From a virus, in IMG/VR virus record IMGVR_UViG_3300030616_000064, positions 1 to 32,077 of that record: a stretch of DNA of 32,077 nucleotides; one strand, 5' to 3'. The notes under the pieces are model-generated. The model was not told the DNA's origin and did not search any database. It saw only the letters and a program-made list of their open reading frames with translations. A program made the translations under genes and the position numbers. Numbering within the stretch: position 1 is the first letter of the stretch; each line of letters starts with the position of its first letter. Below, in pieces: positions 1 through 25,896 of the stretch.

Positions 1-456
1 CTGCTGGAGCAATACCCCGACTGGTCGGTGTCCACCGCGCTGCGCGGTGCACTTTTCGACGAAGAGCGCGCGCGGCGGGGCAGCAGGCTGGGCCGCGAAA
101 AAGCAATGGCCTGGATGCGCGCCTATATTTTTGCCGACAATCCCGAAGGGCAACCAGGGCACCCGAGCGCGTCGCCGGCCCAGGACAACGACCTGCGCGC
201 GCAGCTGGCCGAAGCTGAAGACCTGGCGCGCCTGATTCTGCATTGCCTGACGCGCGACACGCCATTGGAAGCGGTCGGCGCAATCATCCGCGAAGCCAAG
301 GCACGGCTGGAGCCCGACGGCCAGGCCACCCCCCCGACCGAATCACAGGCCGAAGCCCGGCTGCGCCAGATGGCCCCGCATTGCCGCGGCTGCGTCTGGT
401 GGAACCGTGAAAGACTGCACATCCGTCTGGAGAAAACCAAGACGGGCGGTGCGTGA
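1..456 (+). CDS. Hypothetical protein, 5' truncated by window edge
   Basis: The frame is open from base 1 to the stop at 454-456, so at least 151 residues are present and the true start lies upstream. A GTG at position 28 is the first internal start-like codon but has no clear ribosome site. The visible part is hydrophilic, with an Arg/Ala-rich N-terminal stretch, a helical middle (about residues 60-105) and a C-terminal HCRGC motif that could bind a metal. I recognise no family. The next gene starts on its stop codon (TGATG), so it belongs to the rightward operon of small genes that ends near 1836. Confidence 0.6.
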   Translation: MLEQYPDWSVSTALRGALFDEERARRGSRLGREKAMAWMRAYIFADNPEGQPGHPSASPAQDNDLRAQLAEAEDLARLILHCLTRDTPLEAVGAIIREAKARLEPDGQATPPTESQAEARLRQMAPHCRGCVWWNRERLHIRLEKTKTGGA

Positions 457-665
457 TGAGCATGGGCTACATCCGAAGATACTATGGAGTTCCTGCGAAG
501 CGCGGCGGCAGGGTTGCGTGGAAGACCAGCAAGGGGGTGCGTCACGGCACAATCACGCGGGCAACGGCCTACGTGTATGTGCGCTTCGACGGGGAGCGGC
601 AATCCGTGCCGCTGCACCCGAGGGGAAATGGGCTGGAGTACGAGGCCGAGAAGAAGGAGATCTGA
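456..665 (+). CDS. Small basic phage protein (YYGVPAKRGGRV type)
   Basis: A 69-residue basic protein beginning MSMGYIRRYYGVPAKRGG. I recall small proteins with this N-terminal signature in tailed-phage accessory regions, without known function. The middle (residues 17-55) looks like a small beta barrel, with alternating hydrophobic and basic residues around TYVYVRFDGE-like strands. ATG 456 overlaps the upstream stop. A GTG at 453 and an ATG at 462 are alternative starts. Its stop overlaps the next start by one base, implying translational coupling. No function is assigned. Confidence 0.65.
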   Translation: MSMGYIRRYYGVPAKRGGRVAWKTSKGVRHGTITRATAYVYVRFDGERQSVPLHPRGNGLEYEAEKKEI

Positions 666-976
666 TGAGCCACGAAGAGTGCCGCCACGGCGTTATAGTG
701 CGCATAGCTGGCGTGGAGACCGGCGAGCGTTGCCGGCTGTGCGAAATGACCTCCACCGGACCACACACGCGCAAATGGCCGCCGCTCAAACTCTGCTGCA
801 CCACCTGCGGCCTGGTGCTGGTGCCCATGGCGCATCACGACGGCGACGGATGGTTCCTGCACCTCGGCGGTTGCAATTGCGAGCAGCCCGCCGAGCTGGT
901 GCAGTTCCAGTGGCCGGAGGGTGTTGAGTCGCTGACCGCCGCGGAGCTTCGTGACATGGGCTTCATCATCGCATGA
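665..976 (+). CDS. Cysteine-rich, probable zinc-binding protein
   Basis: A 103-residue protein starting MSHEECRHGV. It has CRLC, a CCTTC cluster and a late GCNC, with several histidines around HHDGDGWFLH. This pattern suggests one or two zinc knuckles. The open frame continues well upstream, but ATG 665 sits on the previous stop (TGATG) and overlaps the neighbouring gene by only one base, so it is the likelier start. The last four bases overlap the next gene (ATGA). Zinc binding is inferred from cysteine spacing only. Role unknown. Confidence 0.7.
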   Translation: MSHEECRHGVIVRIAGVETGERCRLCEMTSTGPHTRKWPPLKLCCTTCGLVLVPMAHHDGDGWFLHLGGCNCEQPAELVQFQWPEGVESLTAAELRDMGFIIA

Positions 977-1188
977 CCGCCTCGGCCGGCATCCTGCGCC
1001 TGCTGCGGCGATCGCGCTCGGGCGGCAAGACCGCCCATGAGCTGGCCGAGTGGCTGGCCATGCCGCGTCGCAACGTGTCCAGCACCCTGTACCGCCTGAA
1101 AAAAGCGGGGCGGATCGTAAAGGTCGACGACCAGCGACCGGCGCTCTGGGCGCTCGTTGACAGTCACGAAAGGAGCGGCGTCCAATGA
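973..1188 (+). CDS. Small winged helix-turn-helix protein
   Basis: A 71-residue protein that reads as a bare winged-helix DNA-binding domain. It has an N-terminal helix (ILRLLRRS), a helix-turn-helix at about residues 20-47 (AHELAEWLAMPRRNVSSTLY, then RLKKAGRIV) and a short wing ending in ALWALV. The pattern resembles MarR/ArsR-type and phage 'YRLKKAG' regulators. It overlaps both neighbours by four bases. It lies in the last cluster before the late region, so it is one candidate for a late-gene regulator, but nothing in the sequence proves that. Confidence 0.7.
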   Translation: MTASAGILRLLRRSRSGGKTAHELAEWLAMPRRNVSSTLYRLKKAGRIVKVDDQRPALWALVDSHERSGVQ

Positions 1189-1391
1189 TCACCCTGACCA
1201 CCCGCGAACGCGAGAAGTTCGCCAAGTGGTGCGAGCAGCGCGCGAGGGACAACCAGGTCATCGCCGACCAAGCCGCCAAACTACCCGGCATCGGCACGGC
1301 CATGGCCAGGCTGCAGCGCAACGAAGCTCTTGCGCTGACCGCGGTGGCCATGCTGCTGCAGCAAATCGAAACCGAAAACGAGGAGGGCTGA
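1185..1391 (+). CDS. Small helical protein of unknown function
   Basis: A 68-residue, probably all-helical protein (MITLTTREREKFAKWCEQRA...). It has one long amphipathic stretch over residues 5-30 and another over residues 45-65. The ATG overlaps the preceding stop (ATGA). The GAGGAGGGC near its end provides the ribosome site of the next gene. Sequences with the TxREREKFAxWCE pattern occur in phage accessory regions as short hypothetical proteins. I can assign no function. Confidence 0.65.
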   Translation: MITLTTREREKFAKWCEQRARDNQVIADQAAKLPGIGTAMARLQRNEALALTAVAMLLQQIETENEEG

Positions 1392-1392
1392 C

Positions 1393-1836
1393 ATGCCAAC
1401 CAACCGCATCATCCACCCCGGTGGCAACGGCGGGGGGATCGTCCCCCCGCGATCCGAGATCCTGCCGATTCCGCTGCCGCCGGGCGTGAGCTTCCTGTCC
1501 GCCGGCGCGGCCGTCTGCGTGGTGCCGCCCTCGCCGGTCAGCGCGAAGAAGAACCCGTCGCTGACCCTGTTGCCGCGGCGCGACTTCAAGATGATCCTGG
1601 AGGCCTATTCCCAGGCGGTCGAGGAACACCGCCCCATCGTGATCTACCCCGAGCCCGACGCCAGCCCCGAGGGCATGCGTCCCAAGCTCGATCGCATCGA
1701 GGAGCTCGATGACGACCTGGCCCAGCTGGCCGCCCGCGCCGAGATCACCGTCAACGGCAAGCGCTACGACAGCCTGGCCTCCGGCTTTCGCATGCTGCAG
1801 CCCGGTGAGGAGATCGTGATCCGCCGCGAGAAGTAA
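1393..1836 (+). CDS. Hypothetical protein, last gene of the left operon
   Basis: A 147-residue protein. Residues 1-50 are Gly/Pro-rich and probably flexible. The remainder looks like a small alpha/beta domain with an acidic helix (RIEELDDDLAQLAARAE) and a C-terminal beta segment (ITVNGKRYDSL). GGAGGG lies just before the ATG, inside the preceding gene. A strong hairpin follows at 1873-1901 and the next gene is antisense, so this is the end of the operon. No family recognised. Confidence 0.65.
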   Translation: MPTNRIIHPGGNGGGIVPPRSEILPIPLPPGVSFLSAGAAVCVVPPSPVSAKKNPSLTLLPRRDFKMILEAYSQAVEEHRPIVIYPEPDASPEGMRPKLDRIEELDDDLAQLAARAEITVNGKRYDSLASGFRMLQPGEEIVIRREK

Positions 1837-1872
1837 GCTACCGGCGGGCGCGTTGCGCTCGTCGAGATCTGT

Positions 1873-1901
1873 CCGGCCCCCGGTCATGCGCCGGGGGCCG
1901 G
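1873..1901. terminator. GC-rich hairpin between convergent genes
   Basis: A perfect 11-bp inverted repeat (CCGGCCCCCGG, 7-nt loop, CCGGGGGCCGG) lies in the 76-bp gap between the convergent genes ending at 1836 and 1913. It has no T-tract on either strand. It could act as a bidirectional roadblock or RNA 3'-end stabiliser rather than a classical intrinsic terminator. Confidence 0.6.
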
Positions 1902-1912
1902 GCATTTCGGCG

Positions 1913-2602
1913 CTAGAAGTCGAAGTTCTTGCCGGTGGCGCTGGTTTTCGGCGTGTAGCCGCCCGGGGGCGGCTCGCCACAGGTCTTGGCGTAGTGTTTC
2001 TCTGCCGAGTAAAGCACCAGGTAGTACCGCGGAAGGCAGCACAGCTCGGGGCTGGCCGCGTCCCTGCCGTCACGCGCGGACCAGCCGGGGATGGCGGCCA
2101 CGGCGCCCTGTGCGGGCCAGCGGAACCGCGCGATCTGTTTGGGCGCCAGCATGGCCACCGGGCTGCTCTTGACCGCCGGCAGCCGGCTGCCCGTGCCGGA
2201 CCGCAGCTCGGGCCGCGGGTGGACGTTGTAGAGCGTCGTGGTGCCCTTGTTGGTCATCTGCGCGTGCAGCCACCCGCCGCGCAGCACCAGCTGCATATCG
2301 ATCCGGTTGCGGTAGCAGTCAACGGTGCCCCGCGAGCCGCCCAGCCGCTTGACCGCGTTCCACTGATCGCCGGTCAGCTTGTTCTTCGCACCGCTCAGCG
2401 CCCGCTGGATGGCCTCGGACTCCTGCTGGAGCACCTGGTACCGGGCGGTCAGCTCCACCAGCCTGGCGCGGCCCTTGCGGTTGTTTACGACCGCCCCTGC
2501 CGCGGCCGGCTTCGCCGGCGCGTTCACTTCCGCGGCGACCGCCACGGCGATCGCTGCGACCACGGCGACGGCCGCGGCACTACTCCTGGCTTTGCGTTGC
2601 AT
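1913..2602 (-). CDS. Secreted/periplasmic protein, putative lysogenic 'moron'
   Basis: A 229-residue antisense gene between the left operon and the late region. The start at 2602 (MQRKARSS) is set by an AAAGGGG ribosome site; the frame extends 16 codons further up without a good site. The N-terminus is a classic Sec signal: basic n-region, then a long Ala/Val core ending near AVAAEVNA. A predicted coiled coil follows (about residues 45-80), then a beta-rich region. Four cysteines after the signal (VDCYRN, ELCCLP, KTCGEP) could form disulfides. It has its own promoter at 2651-2678. Independent promoter, opposite strand and export signal are typical of morons expressed from a prophage. The function is unknown and I recognise no family. 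Confidence 0.75.
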   Translation of the reverse strand: MQRKARSSAAAVAVVAAIAVAVAAEVNAPAKPAAAGAVVNNRKGRARLVELTARYQVLQQESEAIQRALSGAKNKLTGDQWNAVKRLGGSRGTVDCYRNRIDMQLVLRGGWLHAQMTNKGTTTLYNVHPRPELRSGTGSRLPAVKSSPVAMLAPKQIARFRWPAQGAVAAIPGWSARDGRDAASPELCCLPRYYLVLYSAEKHYAKTCGEPPPGGYTPKTSATGKNFDF

Positions 2603-2650
2603 GTTTGCCCCTTTCCGCTTCTGAGATAGCCCGCCATGCCCGCTACTCAT

Positions 2651-2678
2651 AGGATACGCCGGTGCCCGCGGATGTCAA
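2651..2678 (-). promoter_or_regulatory. Consensus sigma70-type promoter for the secreted-protein gene
   Basis: Read on the minus strand, a perfect TTGACA (2673-2678) is followed by a 16-bp spacer and TATCCT (2651-2656). Transcription would start near 2644, about 42 bases upstream of the ATG at 2602, leaving a short leader with an AAAGGGG ribosome site. It is among the best -35/-10 pairs in the window and stands out against the GC-rich background. Confidence 0.75.
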
Positions 2679-2701
2679 TACCGAATACCTGCGCCGGGCT
2701 C

Positions 2702-2759
2702 GGCGCGCAAAGCGCGCCTAAGCCGCTGGCCGCCTGTCACATCCAACTTGGCGCGCAAA
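2702..2759. repeat. Repeated GGCGCGCAAA element between divergent promoters
   Basis: GGCGCGCAAA occurs at 2702-2711 and again at 2750-2759. The first copy is also half of a 7-bp dyad (GGCGCGC-AAA-GCGCGCC, 2702-2718). Both copies lie between the leftward promoter (2651-2678) and the rightward promoter (2773-2802). A shared operator controlling both is an attractive inference, but no binding protein is known. Confidence 0.4.
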
Positions 2760-2772
2760 ATGGCTTCGGGTC

Positions 2773-2802
2773 TTGTCTTCGCGGGGTGCTTCGCGGTATG
2801 CT
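2773..2802 (+). promoter_or_regulatory. Probable late promoter (pR'-like)
   Basis: TTGTCT at 2773-2778 and TATGCT at 2797-2802, with an 18-bp spacer. Transcription would begin at about 2808-2810, exactly where the GTGAG closing helix of the structured RNA begins. It is the only recognisable promoter upstream of the head genes. There is no room for another between the terminator (ending 2990) and the first head gene (3003). Confidence 0.65.
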
Positions 2803-2808
2803 ATAGGC

Positions 2809-2990
2809 GTGAGAGGCAAGGCACGCCTTGCAGCCCTGAGGGGGAGCACCTCATGAGGTAGTGGCGGACAGTCCGACGGGGGCCTTGGCAGTGCGCTGAC
2901 GCACGCCAACGCCCCCGGTCCGGGCTCACTACAGACGCGAGACCTTCGCGGCCGTTTGCTGAAGCATCAGCAGGCGGCCGCTTTCTTTTT
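2809..2990 (+). ncRNA. Structured leader RNA upstream of the head operon
   Basis: A stretch of about 180 nt with no plausible gene, bounded by a promoter and an intrinsic terminator. By hand it folds as follows. A closing helix GTGAG (2809-2813)/CTCAC (2925-2929). A hairpin GCAAGG-CACG-CCTTGC (2816-2831). A TGAGG/CCTCA or palindromic ACCTCATGAGGT hairpin (2837-2859). A long arm CGGAC (2865-2869)/GTCCG (2918-2922), continuing into CGGGGGC (2877-2883)/GCCCCCG (2911-2917), TGGC/GCCA, and GTGCG-CTGA-CGCAC (2891-2904). A hairpin CGCGA/TCGCG (2936-2950) overlaps the base of the terminator stem. The arrangement parallels the lambda pR' 6S RNA ending at tR', and put-type antiterminator RNAs are an alternative. 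The sequence matches no RNA family I know. Confidence 0.65.
2948..2990 (+). terminator. Strong intrinsic terminator in front of the head genes
   Basis: The stem GCGGCCG-TT-TGCTG (2948-2961) pairs with CAGCA-GG-CGGCCGC (2968-2981). The TT/GG positions can form G-U pairs, giving 14 continuous pairs around a 6-nt loop. TTTCTTTTT follows at 2982-2990. It is the only hairpin in the window with a proper T-tract. The ribosome site of the next gene (GGAG, 2991-2994) abuts it, so the head genes need read-through. Confidence 0.85.
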
Positions 2991-3002
2991 GGAGCGGCGA
3001 TC

Positions 3003-3293
3003 TTGGCCACCAGCATCAGCAAGGCAAACTTCCAGGCCGCACTGGGCAACTGCTACGACGCGATCGAGTCGGAGTCGTGGGCCAGCGCCTGGAAGTACTA
3101 CGCGATGGCCGAGGCCCAGCACGCCGGGCTGCTCAAGAGCTCCAGCGGTGACGGCATGGCCATGGAGCGCCGTGCCAGCCTGGAGGGGCTCAAGGACGCC
3201 ATCAAGGCTGCCGAATCCGGCGTGGACCAGCGCGCCGGCGCCGGCAATCGGCTGATCACCGCCCGTACCGGGTACAGCGCCAGGGGCCGCTGA
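3003..3293 (+). CDS. Small head protein, possible gpW-like head-tail adaptor
   Basis: A 96-residue protein with a TTG start at 3003, placed eight bases after GGAG (2991-2994). Two helical segments (about residues 5-40, ALGNCYDAIESESWASAW..., and 52-72, RRASLEGLKDAIKAAE) flank a polar turn. A basic, Gly-rich tail follows. Size and position directly before a gpB-type portal match lambda gpW, a small joining protein added after DNA packaging. The sequence resemblance is weak, so the call rests mainly on synteny. Its stop overlaps the portal start (TGATG). Confidence 0.6.
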   Translation: MATSISKANFQAALGNCYDAIESESWASAWKYYAMAEAQHAGLLKSSSGDGMAMERRASLEGLKDAIKAAESGVDQRAGAGNRLITARTGYSARGR

Positions 3294-4942
3294 TGGTCAT
3301 GCCGATGCGTACCCGCGCTTACGGCAACCGCATCGAGCGGGCCGTCGACACGGTCATCGGTCTGTTCAACCCCCGCAAGGCCTTCATGCGTTCGCACTTC
3401 CGGCGCATGGAGCGCGACATCGACTACCGCGAGAACGTATTCACGCTGATGCGCGCGCGCGGTTACCGCAACGCGGCAGCCGGCAGCCAGAAGACCCCTT
3501 GGGGCGGCACCAGCCGCGACGCCGACGGCGAGATCACCGGCGGCCGCAAGCAGCTGGTGTCGCGCTCGCGGGAGGTCAACCGCGACGACCCGGTGGCCAG
3601 CGGCCTGACCGGTACCTACGTGCACAACTGGATCGGCACGGGCATGACCCCGCAGGCCCAGACCGGCGACGACGCCAAGGACGACGCGCTCGAGGCCGTC
3701 TGGGAGCTGCGCAAGGACTCGCTCTACCCGGCCGATCTGCTCGACTACGAGGAGGCTCAGCGCCTCAACGCGCGCAAGGTCATCGAGGACGGCGAGGTGC
3801 TGGTCAAGCATGCCCGCCGCCCGCGACGCTACGGCGCCGACCCGGTCTGGTTCGAGATCATCGAGAGCGACCGCCTGGCCACCCCGCAGCAGCTGGCCGG
3901 CGAGGAGCTGGCCGGCCGCATTCGCGAGGGTGTGGAGCGCGACGAGAGCGGCTGGATCGTGGCTTTCCACATCCGCAAGACGCACCCCGGCAAGATGTCT
4001 CTGCTGGACGCCGCCGACCGCAAGTTCGCGCGTGTCGAGGCCGGCGTTGTCAAGCACCTGAAGTTCACGAAGCGCCCGGGCCAGAGCCGCGGCGTGCCGC
4101 TGTTCCACGCGGTGCTCCAGGACCTGCGCGACCTGGATCTCCTGATTGTGGCCAGCCTCAAGCGCACGCAGATCTCGGCCTGCCTAAGCATTTTCATCAA
4201 GAGCCCCTTGCCGGCCGACCAGATCCTGGACATCACCGCCGAAAAGTACGGCTACAAGCTCGACGACACGCTCGAGCCCGGCATGATCATGAAGCTCTTC
4301 CCGGGCGAGGAAGTCCAGACCATCATTCCCAACTTCCCGGGCAGCGACCTGGTGCCCTTCATCCTGCTGCTGGCCAGGCGCATCGGCGCCGCGCTGGGCG
4401 TTTCCTGGCAGGTGGTGCTCAAGGACTTCAGCCAGGCTAACTACAGCAGCGCGCGCACGGATCTCATGGAGTCCCGCCAGGTCTACGTGGTGCTGCAGCG
4501 CTGGTTCGAGAGCAAGCTGCTCAAGTGGGAGTGGCGCACGGTCATGGAGGACGCGCTGCTGCGTGGCGAGCCGCTGCTGGTTTCCGCCGGCGTCGAGCTT
4601 GCCGACATACGCAAGGTCAAGTGGATCCCCAACGGCTGGGACTGGGTCGACCCGGTCAAGGAGGCCAAGGGCAAGCAGATCGAGCTGGAGATGAAGGTTA
4701 CTTCACCTTACGAGATCTGCGCCTCGAAGGGCAAGGACTTCCCGACCGTGCTGCGCCAGTGCCTGAAGGCCGAGCAGCTGGAGATCAAGCTCCGCAAGGA
4801 CATGAAACTCCCGGCGCGCGCGCCCGACTCGGCCTTCGAGCCCGCGGCCGCCGACACCGACGACGACAAGGACGACGATCCGCCCCCGCCGGCCAGGCGC
4901 GGGCTGCTGGCTCTGATTCAGAACACCCTCGGAGGCAACTGA
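3293..4942 (+). CDS. Portal protein, lambda gpB family
   Basis: A 549-residue protein of the lambda-type portal family (Phage_portal_2). The portal ring forms the DNA channel at one capsid vertex and binds terminase and the connector. Supporting features: a basic N-terminus, REVNRDDPVASG and YVHNWIGTG near residues 92-115, WFEIIESDRLATP in the wing domain, DLDLLIVASLKRTQI in the stem/crown region, the signature SQANYSSAR at about residue 380, and WDWVDPVKEAKGKQIE near residue 450. An acidic D/P-rich tail precedes a short C-terminal helix. Length matches lambda gpB (533). The ATG overlaps the upstream stop and the stop overlaps the protease start. Confidence 0.93.
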   Translation: MVMPMRTRAYGNRIERAVDTVIGLFNPRKAFMRSHFRRMERDIDYRENVFTLMRARGYRNAAAGSQKTPWGGTSRDADGEITGGRKQLVSRSREVNRDDPVASGLTGTYVHNWIGTGMTPQAQTGDDAKDDALEAVWELRKDSLYPADLLDYEEAQRLNARKVIEDGEVLVKHARRPRRYGADPVWFEIIESDRLATPQQLAGEELAGRIREGVERDESGWIVAFHIRKTHPGKMSLLDAADRKFARVEAGVVKHLKFTKRPGQSRGVPLFHAVLQDLRDLDLLIVASLKRTQISACLSIFIKSPLPADQILDITAEKYGYKLDDTLEPGMIMKLFPGEEVQTIIPNFPGSDLVPFILLLARRIGAALGVSWQVVLKDFSQANYSSARTDLMESRQVYVVLQRWFESKLLKWEWRTVMEDALLRGEPLLVSAGVELADIRKVKWIPNGWDWVDPVKEAKGKQIELEMKVTSPYEICASKGKDFPTVLRQCLKAEQLEIKLRKDMKLPARAPDSAFEPAAADTDDDKDDDPPPPARRGLLALIQNTLGGN

Positions 4943-6084
4943 TGGCCAGACGCACGCAGAAGACTCTTCGCTCCGCGGGCCGCGAGCCCGCCCGCGCCCG
5001 CACCCGCGGGCTGTTCTACCCCGAGCGCATCGAAGTCCGGGCGGTAGACGCCGAGAAGCGCCAGGCCACCTTCGTGGCCGCCACCGAGGGCGGGGTCGAG
5101 ACCTGGGCGGGGCCCGAGCACCTGCGCATGAGCGGCGCGAACCTCGATCGCTTTCGCAAGAACCCGGTGATCCTCGACACCCACAACCGCTACGAGGCCG
5201 GCGCGATCATCGGCCGGGCGCTACGCGTCTGGATCGAGCAGGACAAGCTGCTGGTCGAGATCGAGTTCGCGGCCACCAAGCGCGCCGAGGAAATATGGAC
5301 GCTGGTGCGCGACGGGTTCCTGAGCGCGCTCAGCGTCGGGTTCTTGCCCGTCGAGATCATGCGCCTGGGCGAGAACGAGACCTACGGCACCGGCGACCGC
5401 AAGGTGGTCGGACCCGCCCGGGTGATCATAGAGTGGGAGCTATTCGAGATCAGCGTGGTGCCGGTACCCGCCGACGCCGACGCATTGAAACGCAGCTTCT
5501 TCGGCGACGAAGAAGACCCCCGCAATCAGGCCGGAGCCAGTGTGGCGCCGGCAGCGTCTCGGACGCGAGAAAGGAGCAGAAGCATGGATCCGAAGTTCAA
5601 GCAGTACTTGGAGGCCCGCGGGCTCGATCCCGACGAGCTTACCGAGCACACGCTCGAGGCGCTGAAGAAGGATTTCGACGCCGCGAGTCAGCGCTCGGCG
5701 CCAGCCGGCGAGGACACCCCGGTGGACCCCGTCAAGGTCGTGCGCGAGCACAAGCCCGCGGGCGAGCGCAGCGAGGAAGTCGTCCTGCGCGAGCGCGTGA
5801 TGGCCGTCTGTCCCGAGTCCCTGCGCGAGTACGCCGAGGGGCTGCTGCTGGCCGGCGGCAAGGTCGTGCGCAACGCCGAGGGCGAGGAGGCGGTCAAGGA
5901 GTTCCGCAGCTTCGAGGAGTACCGGCGCGCGCTGCTGGAGGAGGCCAAGCGCCAGAGCGCCCCGGTGGGCAGCACCGAGCCCCAGGAGCCGGGCGAGCAC
6001 GGCAAGGGCCAGGAGCGCTCCGGCGCCCCGCAGAAGGTCGAGGACCTCGACGACGACGTCGCGATCCGGGCCATCGCCGGCTAG
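4942..6084 (+). CDS. Prohead protease fused to scaffold domain (lambda C/Nu3-like)
   Basis: A 380-residue protein. Residues 25-190 look like an HK97/U35-type prohead serine protease (herpesvirus assemblin fold). NPVILDTHNRYEAG carries the candidate catalytic His81, SALSVGFLPVE the candidate Ser131, and WELFEISVVPVPADADA is the family's terminal strand-helix. Residues 190-380 are charged and helical, as in a scaffold. The protease matures the prohead by trimming scaffold and other head proteins. ATG 4942 overlaps the portal stop; the open frame upstream is a portal shadow. An internal start at 5584 probably yields the free scaffold. Confidence 0.88.
   Translation: MARRTQKTLRSAGREPARARTRGLFYPERIEVRAVDAEKRQATFVAATEGGVETWAGPEHLRMSGANLDRFRKNPVILDTHNRYEAGAIIGRALRVWIEQDKLLVEIEFAATKRAEEIWTLVRDGFLSALSVGFLPVEIMRLGENETYGTGDRKVVGPARVIIEWELFEISVVPVPADADALKRSFFGDEEDPRNQAGASVAPAASRTRERSRSMDPKFKQYLEARGLDPDELTEHTLEALKKDFDAASQRSAPAGEDTPVDPVKVVREHKPAGERSEEVVLRERVMAVCPESLREYAEGLLLAGGKVVRNAEGEEAVKEFRSFEEYRRALLEEAKRQSAPVGSTEPQEPGEHGKGQERSGAPQKVEDLDDDVAIRAIAG
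5584..6084 (+). CDS. Internal in-frame scaffold protein (Nu3-like)
   Basis: Within the protease gene, GAAAGGAG sits seven bases before ATG 5584, in frame, giving a 166-residue product beginning MDPKFKQYLEARG. The site closely resembles those of the decoration and capsid genes (GGAG-CAGAAGC/ACTGAAGC-ATG). The product is acidic and helical (DELTEHTLEALKKDFD, EFRSFEEYRRALLEEAKR), as scaffolds are. Lambda makes Nu3 from inside gene C in exactly this way. Independent translation here is inferred from the ribosome site, not shown. Confidence 0.7.
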   Translation: MDPKFKQYLEARGLDPDELTEHTLEALKKDFDAASQRSAPAGEDTPVDPVKVVREHKPAGERSEEVVLRERVMAVCPESLREYAEGLLLAGGKVVRNAEGEEAVKEFRSFEEYRRALLEEAKRQSAPVGSTEPQEPGEHGKGQERSGAPQKVEDLDDDVAIRAIAG

Positions 6085-6118
6085 CCGCGGCCGCGGCCAC
6101 GAGAGAGGAGACTGAAGC

Positions 6119-6637
6119 ATGACGACCAACAACTTCGCGCGCTTCCGCAGGAACATCTTCGGCGCGCCCGAACCGCTGATCTACCCCGGCGCTTTCCAGG
6201 CCGGGTCCACCGCCGCGGTCAAGGCCGGGGCGCTCATCGAGCTCACCGCCGACGGCAACAGCAAGTGGGTCGAGATGGACTCGGACTTCAACGGCGCGGC
6301 CAACGTGGCCATCGCCGCCTGCGAGATCAAGAGCGGCGATCGCGCGGGCTACTATCCGATCATCGTTCCCCGGCCCGGCGACATCTTCGAGTTCGCGCTG
6401 TCCGCGGCCGGCGACCCGGTCCTGGGCGCGGCGCTCTACTGGTCGGACGCCGAGACCCTGGCCGAGAGCGGCAGCAACGCCGTGGCCTACGTGGCCGACT
6501 TCGACCACTACCCGGCCATGCAGGGGCACCTGGCCGACGACGCCTCGCCGGACCAGGGCACCACGCTGCGCAGCGTGTCCTACGTCGGCGTCTTCATCGA
6601 CGCGGCCGCCAGCTACTACGCGGCGCTCGTCCAGTAG
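6119..6637 (+). CDS. Capsid decoration-like protein
   Basis: A 172-residue protein between scaffold and major capsid, the slot of lambda gpD. It is beta-rich and Gly/Ala-rich. Residues 30-110 resemble small phage capsid stabilising/DUF2190-type proteins (FQAGSTAAVKAGALIELT, YYPIIVPRPGDIFEFAL, GAALYWSDAETL). A GAGAGGAGA ribosome site precedes the ATG. Such proteins bind capsid trimers after expansion. The assignment is by position and composition, because decoration proteins diverge quickly. Confidence 0.7.
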   Translation: MTTNNFARFRRNIFGAPEPLIYPGAFQAGSTAAVKAGALIELTADGNSKWVEMDSDFNGAANVAIAACEIKSGDRAGYYPIIVPRPGDIFEFALSAAGDPVLGAALYWSDAETLAESGSNAVAYVADFDHYPAMQGHLADDASPDQGTTLRSVSYVGVFIDAAASYYAALVQ

Positions 6638-6674
6638 TCGCGGTAGTCGCGGCCGAGAGAGAGAGGAGACCAAA

Positions 6675-7928
6675 ATGCCACAGGAAACCACCAACAAGGC
6701 CCAGCCGCGCCCCAGGCACCGGCTGGCGTCCAACATCTCGCTGGACAGCGGGCCGGGGATGTCGTCCTACGACCTGCGCCAGCTGGCCCAGAAGGAGCCC
6801 CAGGCCTTCACCCGCAAGATGCTGGGCCTCATCGAACAGCGCGGCGAGGACGGCCGGCGCAAGCTCTCCTGGGAGAGCATCCGCGACCTCGGCCACATGT
6901 ACCGCGCGCTGGCCGGCGTGCCGGTCGAGGTGACCATGGACGACGGCCTGGGCGTGCAGCGCGCGATCATGGCTGACGCCTTCCCGATGCTGGCCGGCAA
7001 CCTCACCGTCGCGGCGGTCAACGACGCCTACGACGCGGTGCCGACCATCGGCCAGGAGCTGGTCACCGAGCGCCAGGACAACAAGCGCTTCACGCAGATC
7101 GCCGGCATCACCAGCAACGGCGGCAACAAGCAGCGCGTGGGCGAGGGCGAGGACTACCCCGAGATCGGCGCCGGGGAGGAGAAGTACACCATCGCCAGCA
7201 ACAAGAACGGCCGGCGCATCTCCATCACCAAGGAGATGATCCAGGAGAACGACCTGGCCAACATCGTCGAGCGGGTCAACGCGCTGGGCGAGATCTCCGC
7301 CGAGGAGATCGAGGAGCAGACCCTCAAGCGCGTCACCGACTTCGACGGCGGCAACAGCCGCGAGCCCTACGTCCTGCACCTCGGGGGCTCGGGCACCGTG
7401 CTGTACATCGTCACCGACGGCAGCCCGGGCGCGCGGGCCTCGCTGGGCACCCAGGTGCAGAACAACGCGCTCGAGGACTACACCGACCTCGACAACGCCC
7501 AGACCCTGCTGGCGGCCATGAAAAACAGCCGTGGCAAGCGCATCAGCATCCCGATGAGCCGCTGCACGCTGCTGGTGCCCAACGCGCTGGCCGGCAAGGC
7601 CGACCGCATCACCGGCAGCGAAATGGTGCCGGGCAGCCTCAACGAGATCAACAGCTGGGGGCCCAAGGGCCGCTACCGCCCGCGGGTGCTCAGCTCGCCG
7701 AAGCTCGACGACCTCTCGACCAGCGCCTGGTATATGGGCTGGTTCCAGAAGCAGTTCGTCCGCAAGTGGAAGATGACCTTCGAGTACGTGACCCTCGGCA
7801 CCCAGACCGAGAGTTACCTGCGCTCGGACATCGCCTTCCAGGCGCGGATGAGCTGGGACTGCGAGGTCGGCGCGCGCGACTACGTCTACGTGGTCCAGTG
7901 CATCGAGGCCAGCACCAACCCCGCGTAA
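6675..7928 (+). CDS. Major capsid protein (HK97 fold)
   Basis: A 417-residue protein with strong ribosome site GAGAGAGGAGA. Residues 1-70 are polar and may be an N-arm. From about residue 80 the order fits an HK97-fold capsid: VPTIGQELVTERQDNKRFTQ, a GEGEDYPEIGAGEEKYTIA segment like an E-loop, KNGRRISITKEMIQENDL leading into the spine helix, a P-domain strand, and a C-terminal block ending RSDIAFQARMSWDCEVGARD. The GEGEDYPE/ISITKE pattern is close to Mu gpT-like and related capsids. Its place after decoration protein and scaffold agrees. Confidence 0.88.
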   Translation: MPQETTNKAQPRPRHRLASNISLDSGPGMSSYDLRQLAQKEPQAFTRKMLGLIEQRGEDGRRKLSWESIRDLGHMYRALAGVPVEVTMDDGLGVQRAIMADAFPMLAGNLTVAAVNDAYDAVPTIGQELVTERQDNKRFTQIAGITSNGGNKQRVGEGEDYPEIGAGEEKYTIASNKNGRRISITKEMIQENDLANIVERVNALGEISAEEIEEQTLKRVTDFDGGNSREPYVLHLGGSGTVLYIVTDGSPGARASLGTQVQNNALEDYTDLDNAQTLLAAMKNSRGKRISIPMSRCTLLVPNALAGKADRITGSEMVPGSLNEINSWGPKGRYRPRVLSSPKLDDLSTSAWYMGWFQKQFVRKWKMTFEYVTLGTQTESYLRSDIAFQARMSWDCEVGARDYVYVVQCIEASTNPA

Positions 7929-7944
7929 GCACCTGACATTGCCC

Positions 7945-7976
7945 CCGGCGGCCCCGGCGCAACCCGGGGCCGCCGG
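7945..7976 (+). terminator. Perfect 13-bp hairpin after the capsid gene
   Basis: CCGGCGGCCCCGG (7945-7957), a 6-nt loop and CCGGGGCCGCCGG (7964-7976) form an uninterrupted stem 16 bases after the capsid stop. No T-tract follows. It could reduce read-through so that capsid exceeds downstream proteins, or protect the capsid mRNA 3' end. It is not a standard intrinsic terminator. Confidence 0.55.
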
Positions 7977-8024
7977 CCGGCACAACCCCGCGGCCACTCC
8001 GCGGCGAATCGGGAGGACTGAAAC

Positions 8025-11476: not shown

Positions 11477-12508
11477 ATGGGCACGCGCTGGTTCAGAGAC
11501 GCTCTGACGCTCTCCGACTCCGATAAGCTGGAGCACGTTCCCGGCTCTGGTGGTCGCACGTGTCGGCTGAAGCTCCAGCAGTCATGGCAGGATGACAACT
11601 TTACTGATTTCGGCCACCTGACTGAAGTGGACAGCGGAACAAACGTCACCGTTGATAGTGGCGTCATCAAGTTCAAGGGCGCGGGCGGATGGGACGCCAA
11701 CGGTGTCCGCACCGCATTAGTTTCGACCACTAACCCCGGCGCATTCCGCGCGCGTATAAAGATGAACGAAAAGGGATATTGCGGGATTGGGTTCACGCGG
11801 GATGCCTCTGGTCTTGACTACAACGATGAAGTGCCAAAGGTGTTTTTCGATGGATCGGGAAACATTGCGCTGATCGAGGCAAACACTATTACACGCAGGT
11901 GTTTCGTCAATACGTTGTGTGATGTTGGCGACACGTTCGACATCTGGTTCGAGTGGGATTGGGACCCAGTCTACAACGTGTTCCAGATCTTCAGAATCTG
12001 TATAGCTCTTCCGGACCTGGAAGACAATAAATTCTGCGTTTTCGAGCAACTGACTGACAATGGTGTCGCCAATATCGGATTCCAGATCAACTGCTACCAG
12101 GCGTTTTCCACTCCGTGGGAGTTGTCCGAACTGGAATACCTGGACGGTTACGACACCGGCGGCGAGGACGGCTCAACAGTGCTAGACGCCGGCGAGGGTA
12201 ACACGTGGGATGGTTCGGTGCTTGCCACGCTTGCTGATGACATTGCGCTGCCGACCGACGATGATCCGCGAGTGTCATACGATGACGTGACCTTTGACGT
12301 GAGCTACGACGACGGCACGCCCGACTGGCAGACCGGCAAGACCTTGGCGCAACTTGAAACGTGGATGAAGGCGCTGGACACCGACAAGCGGTATTTTCGG
12401 CTGAAGGGCGTCTTCGGGAATGATGCGGCCACGCAGGTATACATGCAACTGCCAAACATGGCCGAGGTCCCGCTAACGGGCGGCAATGTCATTGTGGTGG
12501 AGGACTGA
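11477..12508 (+). CDS. Virion protein with lectin/LamG-like jelly-roll domain
   Basis: A 343-residue protein. Residues 30-215 show the alternating strands of a concanavalin/LamG-type domain: DDNFTDFGHLTEVDSGTNVT, GVIKFKGAGGWDANGVR, GAFRARIKMNEKGYCGIGF, DTFDIWFEWDWDPVYNVFQI, NIGFQINCYQAF. The C-terminal part (about 235-340) has a DDDPRVSYDDVTFDVSYDDG segment and a beta tail. Such domains often bind polysaccharide on phage fibres. It lies in the AT-richer block, and many codons end in A/T, unlike the neighbours. The fold call is by strand pattern only. Confidence 0.6.
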   Translation: MGTRWFRDALTLSDSDKLEHVPGSGGRTCRLKLQQSWQDDNFTDFGHLTEVDSGTNVTVDSGVIKFKGAGGWDANGVRTALVSTTNPGAFRARIKMNEKGYCGIGFTRDASGLDYNDEVPKVFFDGSGNIALIEANTITRRCFVNTLCDVGDTFDIWFEWDWDPVYNVFQIFRICIALPDLEDNKFCVFEQLTDNGVANIGFQINCYQAFSTPWELSELEYLDGYDTGGEDGSTVLDAGEGNTWDGSVLATLADDIALPTDDDPRVSYDDVTFDVSYDDGTPDWQTGKTLAQLETWMKALDTDKRYFRLKGVFGNDAATQVYMQLPNMAEVPLTGGNVIVVED

Positions 12509-25344: not shown

Positions 25345-25800
25345 ATGCACACAATCCCAGACGAAGAGAAGACGCAGATACGCATCCCCCACAGCATCGG
25401 GATCGTCGGTCATGTGTCCATGACCCTCGGGCACTACGATGCCGCCGGCGAACTGATTAACACGCTGCCGCCCGTGAGCGTTCCGGCTGAAGCTTTGCAT
25501 CACGACCTGTTCGCGGCCTTGGAGTCGGCGGCGGTGGCGTTTGTCCACCGTGTCCGCGAGGTCAAGCGCCTGGAGGCCGAACGCATACGGGCCGAACGCG
25601 AGGCCAAGCAGAGGGTGCAGCAGGCGATGGCCGACACTCAGGCGGCGCTGAAGTCCGCCCGCGCCGAGATCACCGCCGAGACTGGCAAGCACCCGTTGAG
25701 CGATGACCCGCGTCTGGTGGCGCTCAAGCGCCGCCGCAAAGCGTTGCAGGATCTCTCCGCCGAGGTAGACGTCCGGATCGAGAAGGCCGGCACCGCCTGA
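25345..25800 (+). CDS. Small coiled-coil protein after the fibre gene
   Basis: A 151-residue protein. Residues 1-60 contain a beta portion (RIPHSIGIVGHVSMTLGHYD) and residues 60-125 a long charged helix (RVREVKRLEAERIRAEREAK). Good ribosome site AGGAGCACAGGACG. Its position just after the fibre and before the terminator suits a fibre assembly chaperone or tip accessory, but this is inference. No family recognised. Confidence 0.58.
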   Translation: MHTIPDEEKTQIRIPHSIGIVGHVSMTLGHYDAAGELINTLPPVSVPAEALHHDLFAALESAAVAFVHRVREVKRLEAERIRAEREAKQRVQQAMADTQAALKSARAEITAETGKHPLSDDPRLVALKRRRKALQDLSAEVDVRIEKAGTA

Positions 25801-25865: not shown

Positions 25866-25896
25866 CCGGCCCGCCGGCACCAGCACGGCGGGCCGG
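25866..25896 (+). terminator. Late operon terminator
   Basis: CCGGCCCGCCG (25866-25876), a 9-nt loop and CGGCGGGCCGG (25886-25896) form a perfect 11-bp stem. TGTTTCC follows, a weak T-rich tail. It lies 66 bases after the last late gene and in front of the convergent integrase operon, so it probably ends late transcription and may also work on the opposite strand. Confidence 0.65.

Follow-up and report, generated by a model that had tools for sequence, protein, structure and literature searches.

A putative terminator-gated late promoter at the head operon of an uncultivated phage and its relatives

The head-gene leader and its terminator

The window, the whole stretch of 32,077 bases of an IMG/VR virus record, carries a head-tail operon on the + strand from position 3003 onwards and integrase, repressor-like and CII-like regulator genes on its right side. 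The operon opens with a gpW-like head gene (2991-3293, + strand, counted from its Shine-Dalgarno sequence), which starts with TTG at 3003 and encodes 96 amino acids. This gene has no PHROG match, and a clear counterpart precedes the portal gene in relatives. The next gene (3293-4942, + strand) matches annotated portal proteins, with 27-31% identity to annotated lambda-type portals of Rhodobacter and Synechococcus phages. Because comparison with the terminase of a relative (locus L003) found no large terminase in the window despite the portal, capsid and tail genes, the record may lack a piece. No tRNA was found in the window, and no tandem repeat at the place of the leader.

Directly before the first head gene lies an intrinsic terminator with a T-tract (2948-2990, + strand). 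Its stem (2948-2981) has 15 pairs and a 4-nt loop, AGCA, with a dG of -28.6, and is followed by the tail TTTCTTTTT. When both strands of the window were scanned with folding energies, this terminator ranked first for hairpin and T-tail combined, and the sole hairpin that matches it in energy ends at 25896 and has a poor tail. The first-pass annotation had called it the strongest intrinsic terminator of the window and had stated that the ribosome site of the head gene touches the T-tract. Both statements are upheld, the second by the Shine-Dalgarno sequence GGAG (2991-2994) immediately 3' of the T-tract. Judged from these sequence features, the predicted terminator is real, and it would probably function in the host. 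The hairpin of matching energy (25866-25896, + strand, -29 kcal/mol) stands just past an open reading frame at 25345-25800 and is a possible end of the late transcript.

Upstream of the terminator is a putative late promoter, TTGTCT-18-TATGCT (2773-2802, + strand), from which a transcript would start near 2809. The promoter had been proposed from the window alone, where it scores 8/12; a site like it arises by chance in about 10% of shuffles of 2691-2948, and a second promoter-like site of 8/12 is found at 2734. Its main support comes from the relatives, whose promoters at the corresponding position are better; in L055, a near relative, the site reads TTTACA-18-TAGACT, and the ATAG that comes next is shared with the window. 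The claim that no promoter lies past the terminator held: there is no 8/12 sigma70-like site from 2802 to 3300, thus none between the terminator and the head genes, and no such site of at least 9/12 on the + strand from 1 to 8000. Upstream of the promoter, a perfect inverted repeat, GGCGCGC-AAA-GCGCGCC (2702-2718), is a possible operator for which no relative is known.

The leader RNA preceding the terminator (2809-2947, + strand) had been described as heavily folded, with several hairpins. Folding of 2809-2990 gave a z of -4.8, in line with that description, whereas 2809-2947 without the terminator gave a z of -2.1, with 4 of 200 shuffles as good, and 4% of 73 background windows reach a z of -2.5. 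The first 54 nt of the leader had a z of -0.8 and 2862-2947 alone a z of -3.7. Most of the fold signal outside the terminator is one long hairpin near 2876-2917 (+ strand, limits approximate), which makes the RNA less remarkable than had been described. The small hairpin at 2936-2950 (+ strand; CGCGA-GACCT-TCGCG, dG -5.4 kcal/mol) exists as had been noted and shares 3 nt with the base of the terminator. No homologue of the leader was found. Rfam 15 gave no match to the window RNA at gathering score and nothing convincing at relaxed thresholds; the only copy of the leader in its own record is itself; an exact search of IMG/VR with the core of the inner hairpin returned none; and the shared tail GCCGC..TTTCTTTTTGGAG was found in L005 and otherwise only at unrelated places.

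Recurrence of the leader terminator in relatives

Searches with the portal and capsid proteins gave about 140 loci, and a tree was built with 73 distinct portals from among them. These relatives are metagenomic contigs, and their leader terminators and promoters were selected manually from the scan results. A terminator was found in the leader before gpW or zinc-ribbon/gpW genes at 24 of the 73 distinct portal loci; the remaining loci, about two thirds of the total, lack one at this place. In L003, with a portal 46% identical, a TATAAT promoter and a terminator lie between the zinc-ribbon gene and the gpW-like gene, and the T-tract runs into the Shine-Dalgarno sequence. The order of promoter, leader and terminator is kept to portal identities of 46% and below (e.g. 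L003, L005, L006, L033, L044 and L045). Over the ~780 bases that end at the portal start, strong terminators have a density of 0.42 per kb, compared with 0.038 per kb elsewhere on the same strand. On the portal tree, leader terminators appear in both main branches and in the nearest relatives of the window (L006, L055, L005 and L060), and the trait takes 16 changes, at least 9 of them forced by well-supported branches. In cultured phages with related portals (RcKemmy, S-LBS1 and S-CBS1), gpW and portal are packed behind the terminase with no leader; thus, the leader is a feature of this clade. The leaders of the relatives are ~50 to 220 nt long and unrelated in sequence. Two terminator-like hairpins in tandem precede gpW in L005 (1079-1174) and L051 (5623-5691).

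Nearly all members of the clade have a zinc-ribbon gene (CPxC ... CRxCGH) between the genes for the large terminase and gpW (e.g. 4260-4583 in L003). Upstream of the head genes in the window, neither a terminase nor a zinc-ribbon gene is found at the place seen in relatives, and a minus-strand gene (1913-2650) adjoins the promoter region instead. On these grounds, the upstream side of the module seems to have been exchanged in the window. The minus-strand gene looks like a moron that took over the terminase/zinc-ribbon side. It has its own promoter-like site, TTGACA-16-TATCCT (2678-2651, minus strand), an in-frame start at 2603 gives a signal-peptide-like N-terminus, and there is no PHROG or Pfam match.

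The host search returned one homologue on a Nitrospiria MAG contig (L048), itself without a leader terminator, a weak homologue on a Phycisphaerae MAG (L049), and nothing further among 298 and 197 sampled genomes of these two classes.

Promoter palindromes, nested hairpins and minimal reading frames

Relatives with a leader terminator mostly have a good sigma70 -35/-10 pair upstream, between the upstream gene and the terminator. In six loci, TACAGTCTGTA stands exactly 10 nt ahead of the -35 element, and other loci have other palindromes at its place (TACAAGTTGTA, TACAGACCTGTA, CCAGAACTGG, GAACAAAGTTC, TATTGATCAATA and ACCAGCATCTGGT). A palindrome is centred 15.5-17 nt upstream of -35 in 12 of the 16 promoters examined, against a median of 1 at other offsets, in a comparison that was not blind, as the promoters were chosen by eye and some once the palindrome had been seen. 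The fixed distance suggests that a dimeric DNA-binding regulator may also act on the promoter in these relatives. The window promoter has no palindrome at that distance, and the inverted repeat at 2702-2718 is farther from its -35.

The part of the 5' arm that adjoins the terminator loop is, in most relatives, complementary to the loop itself; it can pair perfectly (5-7 bp) with the loop or, instead, pair with the 3' arm, as in L121 (TGTTGG-AG-CCAACA), L083 (GAGCGG-TG-CCGCTC) and L006 (TGTTGGG-AGG-CCCAACA). A dyad of at least 5 bp is present in 17 of the 24 leader terminators, in none of 35 terminator-like hairpins predicted in 100 kb of E. coli K-12, and in 2% of 250 other hairpins of phage contigs. 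When loops were swapped among the same terminators, the mean dyad decreased from 4.9 to 2.8 bp (2000 trials, maximum 3.9). The dyads have no G-U pairs, compared with 23 of 106 pairs in the alternative pairing with the 3' arm, a contrast that is partly built into the dyad definition. In the sister loci L006 and L055, the 5' arm, loop and 3' arm change jointly at one position (T-A-A to C-G-G). Both pairings of the 5' arm thus seem to be kept. The RNA structure that recurs among relatives lies within the terminator, where the first-pass annotation had not seen it, and it is weak in the window, with a dyad of only 4 bp across the 5' arm and loop (TGCT-GA-AGCA). A pseudoknot in which the terminator loop pairs with the 3' arm seemed less plausible than the alternative pairing, since the linkers look too short. 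Nested dyads also occur in terminators elsewhere in the late region, in L117 (~12085-12116, + strand, GTGTGG-TG-CCACAC, between tail-region genes) and in L108 (~11799-11834, + strand, GGTGAG-TG-CTCACC).

The straight hairpin is more stable by ~5-14 kcal/mol, and formation of the dyad leaves room for its lower stem beside the T-tract. For these reasons, the dyad is more likely to be an intermediate of folding or a hairpin for recognition than a simple antiterminator. Phages with the operator TACAGTCTGTA in common differ in their dyad sequences, an argument for a predicted role of the shape rather than of a DNA-binding sequence.

Some leaders also contain a minimal open reading frame. In the window, the Shine-Dalgarno-like GAGGGGGAG is followed by ATG AGG TAG at 2853-2861 (together 2838-2861, + strand); the other frames are ATG AAG TGA in L026, ATG ATG AAG TAG in L044, ATG TAA in L121 and ATG TGA in L055. 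The pattern (Shine-Dalgarno sequence, ATG, at most two codons, stop) is present in 5 of 19 leaders versus 0.17 expected in shuffles, having been spotted first and tested afterwards. Short leaders have no such frame. These frames may, for instance, load ribosomes or stall them in the wake of the transcribing polymerase.

Proposed control of the head operon by read-through

In lambda, the promoter pR' is followed by the 6S leader and the intrinsic terminator tR', and the late genes are expressed by read-through with the antiterminator Q. The element described here shares with that system, and with Q of phage 21, a promoter, a short untranslated leader, an intrinsic terminator and late genes. While the lambda gate stands before the lysis genes, the terminator here stands before gpW and portal, behind the terminase in relatives; the Q site lies between -10 and -35, whereas the palindrome of the relatives is upstream of -35; and here no Q homologue was recognised and the terminator hairpin is nested. 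A tested precedent for terminators directly before the first gene is provided by the AlpA-controlled alpBCDE and PA0807 operons of Pseudomonas aeruginosa (PMC7969949), which have this position in common with the present element. There, the AlpA element is between -10 and -35 and AlpA is encoded by the host, while no AlpA homologue is shown here. In the Caulobacter gene transfer agent cluster, GafY/GafZ with a terminator and antiterminator gate the structural genes of a phage-like particle (PMC11150451). Particle structural genes are likewise behind a terminator here, but the Caulobacter terminator consists of three 150-bp repeats past the first gene, whereas that of the window precedes the first gene. 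The window proteins scanned had no PHROG or Pfam antitermination match (Q, AlpA or GafZ), in a window that is without part of the genome (no terminase). Since no such protein was recognised, membership of the Q or AlpA system cannot be claimed.

We propose that the element is probably a terminator-gated late promoter at the head operon, similar to lambda pR'/tR' or to the AlpA operons. RNA polymerase would start near 2809, transcribe a leader of ~180 nt and stop at the terminator 2948-2990, and the gpW-like gene, portal and following head and tail genes would be expressed only upon read-through. A predicted phage factor would switch on the read-through, most likely by acting on polymerase at the promoter or close to it, in the way of lambda Q, AlpA and GafZ, with a switch on the nested hairpin as the second choice. 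An intrinsic terminator does lie between the promoter, weak as it is in the window, and the first gene of the operon. The central idea of the first-pass annotation, that the head genes are gated as in lambda pR'/tR', gains support from the recurrence across a large clade of uncultivated phages; against it count the weak promoter of the window and its lack of a palindrome at the relatives' place, the absence of a recognised antiterminator among its scanned proteins, and the many relatives without a leader terminator.

That the decision is made within the terminator RNA is unlikely, even though the nested fold invites the idea. The 5' arm would pair with the loop first and then pass to the 3' arm, and a factor or the folding kinetics acting on the first hairpin would set termination versus read-through, like a miniature riboswitch expression platform. 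The excess of dyads over the control hairpins, the loop swaps and the joint arm and loop changes between L006 and L055 speak for it, and internal strand displacement is established for riboswitch terminators (PMC10085676). In such riboswitch platforms (e.g. ZTP), a terminator arm likewise displaces an earlier hairpin; here, however, no aptamer was found, and the competing hairpin is inside the terminator and compatible with the lower stem. Given this coexistence and the greater stability of the straight hairpin, the dyad alone should not abolish termination, and the dyad of the window is short. The put-like element that the first-pass annotation had thought possible, an antiterminator RNA acting without any factor, has a probability close to negligible. 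As with put of HK022, the leader begins near a phage promoter and folds into hairpins in the nascent RNA, yet put is a conserved ~70-nt element of two stem-loops in early operons (PMC9378689), whereas the operon here is late and such a conserved two-stem fold is absent. The leaders have no sequence in common, the shorter ones (~50 nt in L003) could not hold such an element, and Rfam gave no match. The broader idea that the folded RNA itself is the antiterminator likewise finds no support, in view of the unrelated leaders, the lack of an inner-RNA homologue and the modest fold without the terminator.

It is distinctly unlikely that the terminator is mainly an insulator against stray upstream transcription, with the head genes expressed otherwise. 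In mobile elements, terminators often serve as insulators (Tn916, PMC11658703), and small + strand genes do lie upstream of the terminator in the window. On the other hand, the region past the terminator has no promoter-like site, and in relatives the promoter stands between the upstream gene and the terminator, an arrangement for which an insulator would have no use. Quite improbable, too, is a leader that serves as a small RNA itself, in trans or via its minimal reading frame, with read-through secondary. Such an RNA would have its own promoter and terminator, the frames with Shine-Dalgarno sequences would fit, and the prophage Gifsy-1 offers an example in IsrK, a small RNA that also has a read-through isoform (PMC4825925); against it, the leaders are unrelated across relatives, and some, at ~50 nt, are mostly terminator.

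Beyond the gated promoter that we favour, we tentatively suggest an undescribed late-gene switch in this large clade, in which a palindrome-controlled promoter may be combined with a two-step terminator (loop hairpin, then full stem) recognised or timed by a factor, with start-stop minigenes in some longer leaders and the window as a diverged example. The gate favoured here would carry terminator-gated late control beyond model phages and gene transfer agents into a large clade represented almost exclusively by metagenomic sequences. It would be placed at the head operon, and its terminators point to a two-step fold that recurs in the clade. Owing to its small size, the module could be transferred to a reporter in which the gate and the nested hairpin are testable, and the same contigs could afterwards be searched for the factor. 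The zinc-ribbon protein was considered as the antiterminator and is kept as a lead only: it is also encoded in relatives without the terminator, its gene is 3' of the terminator in L046, L117 and L125, and it is absent at that place in the window. A 71-aa winged-helix protein (973-1185, + strand), MarR-like and above the cut-off for Pfam z-alpha, is a candidate regulator encoded in the window itself.
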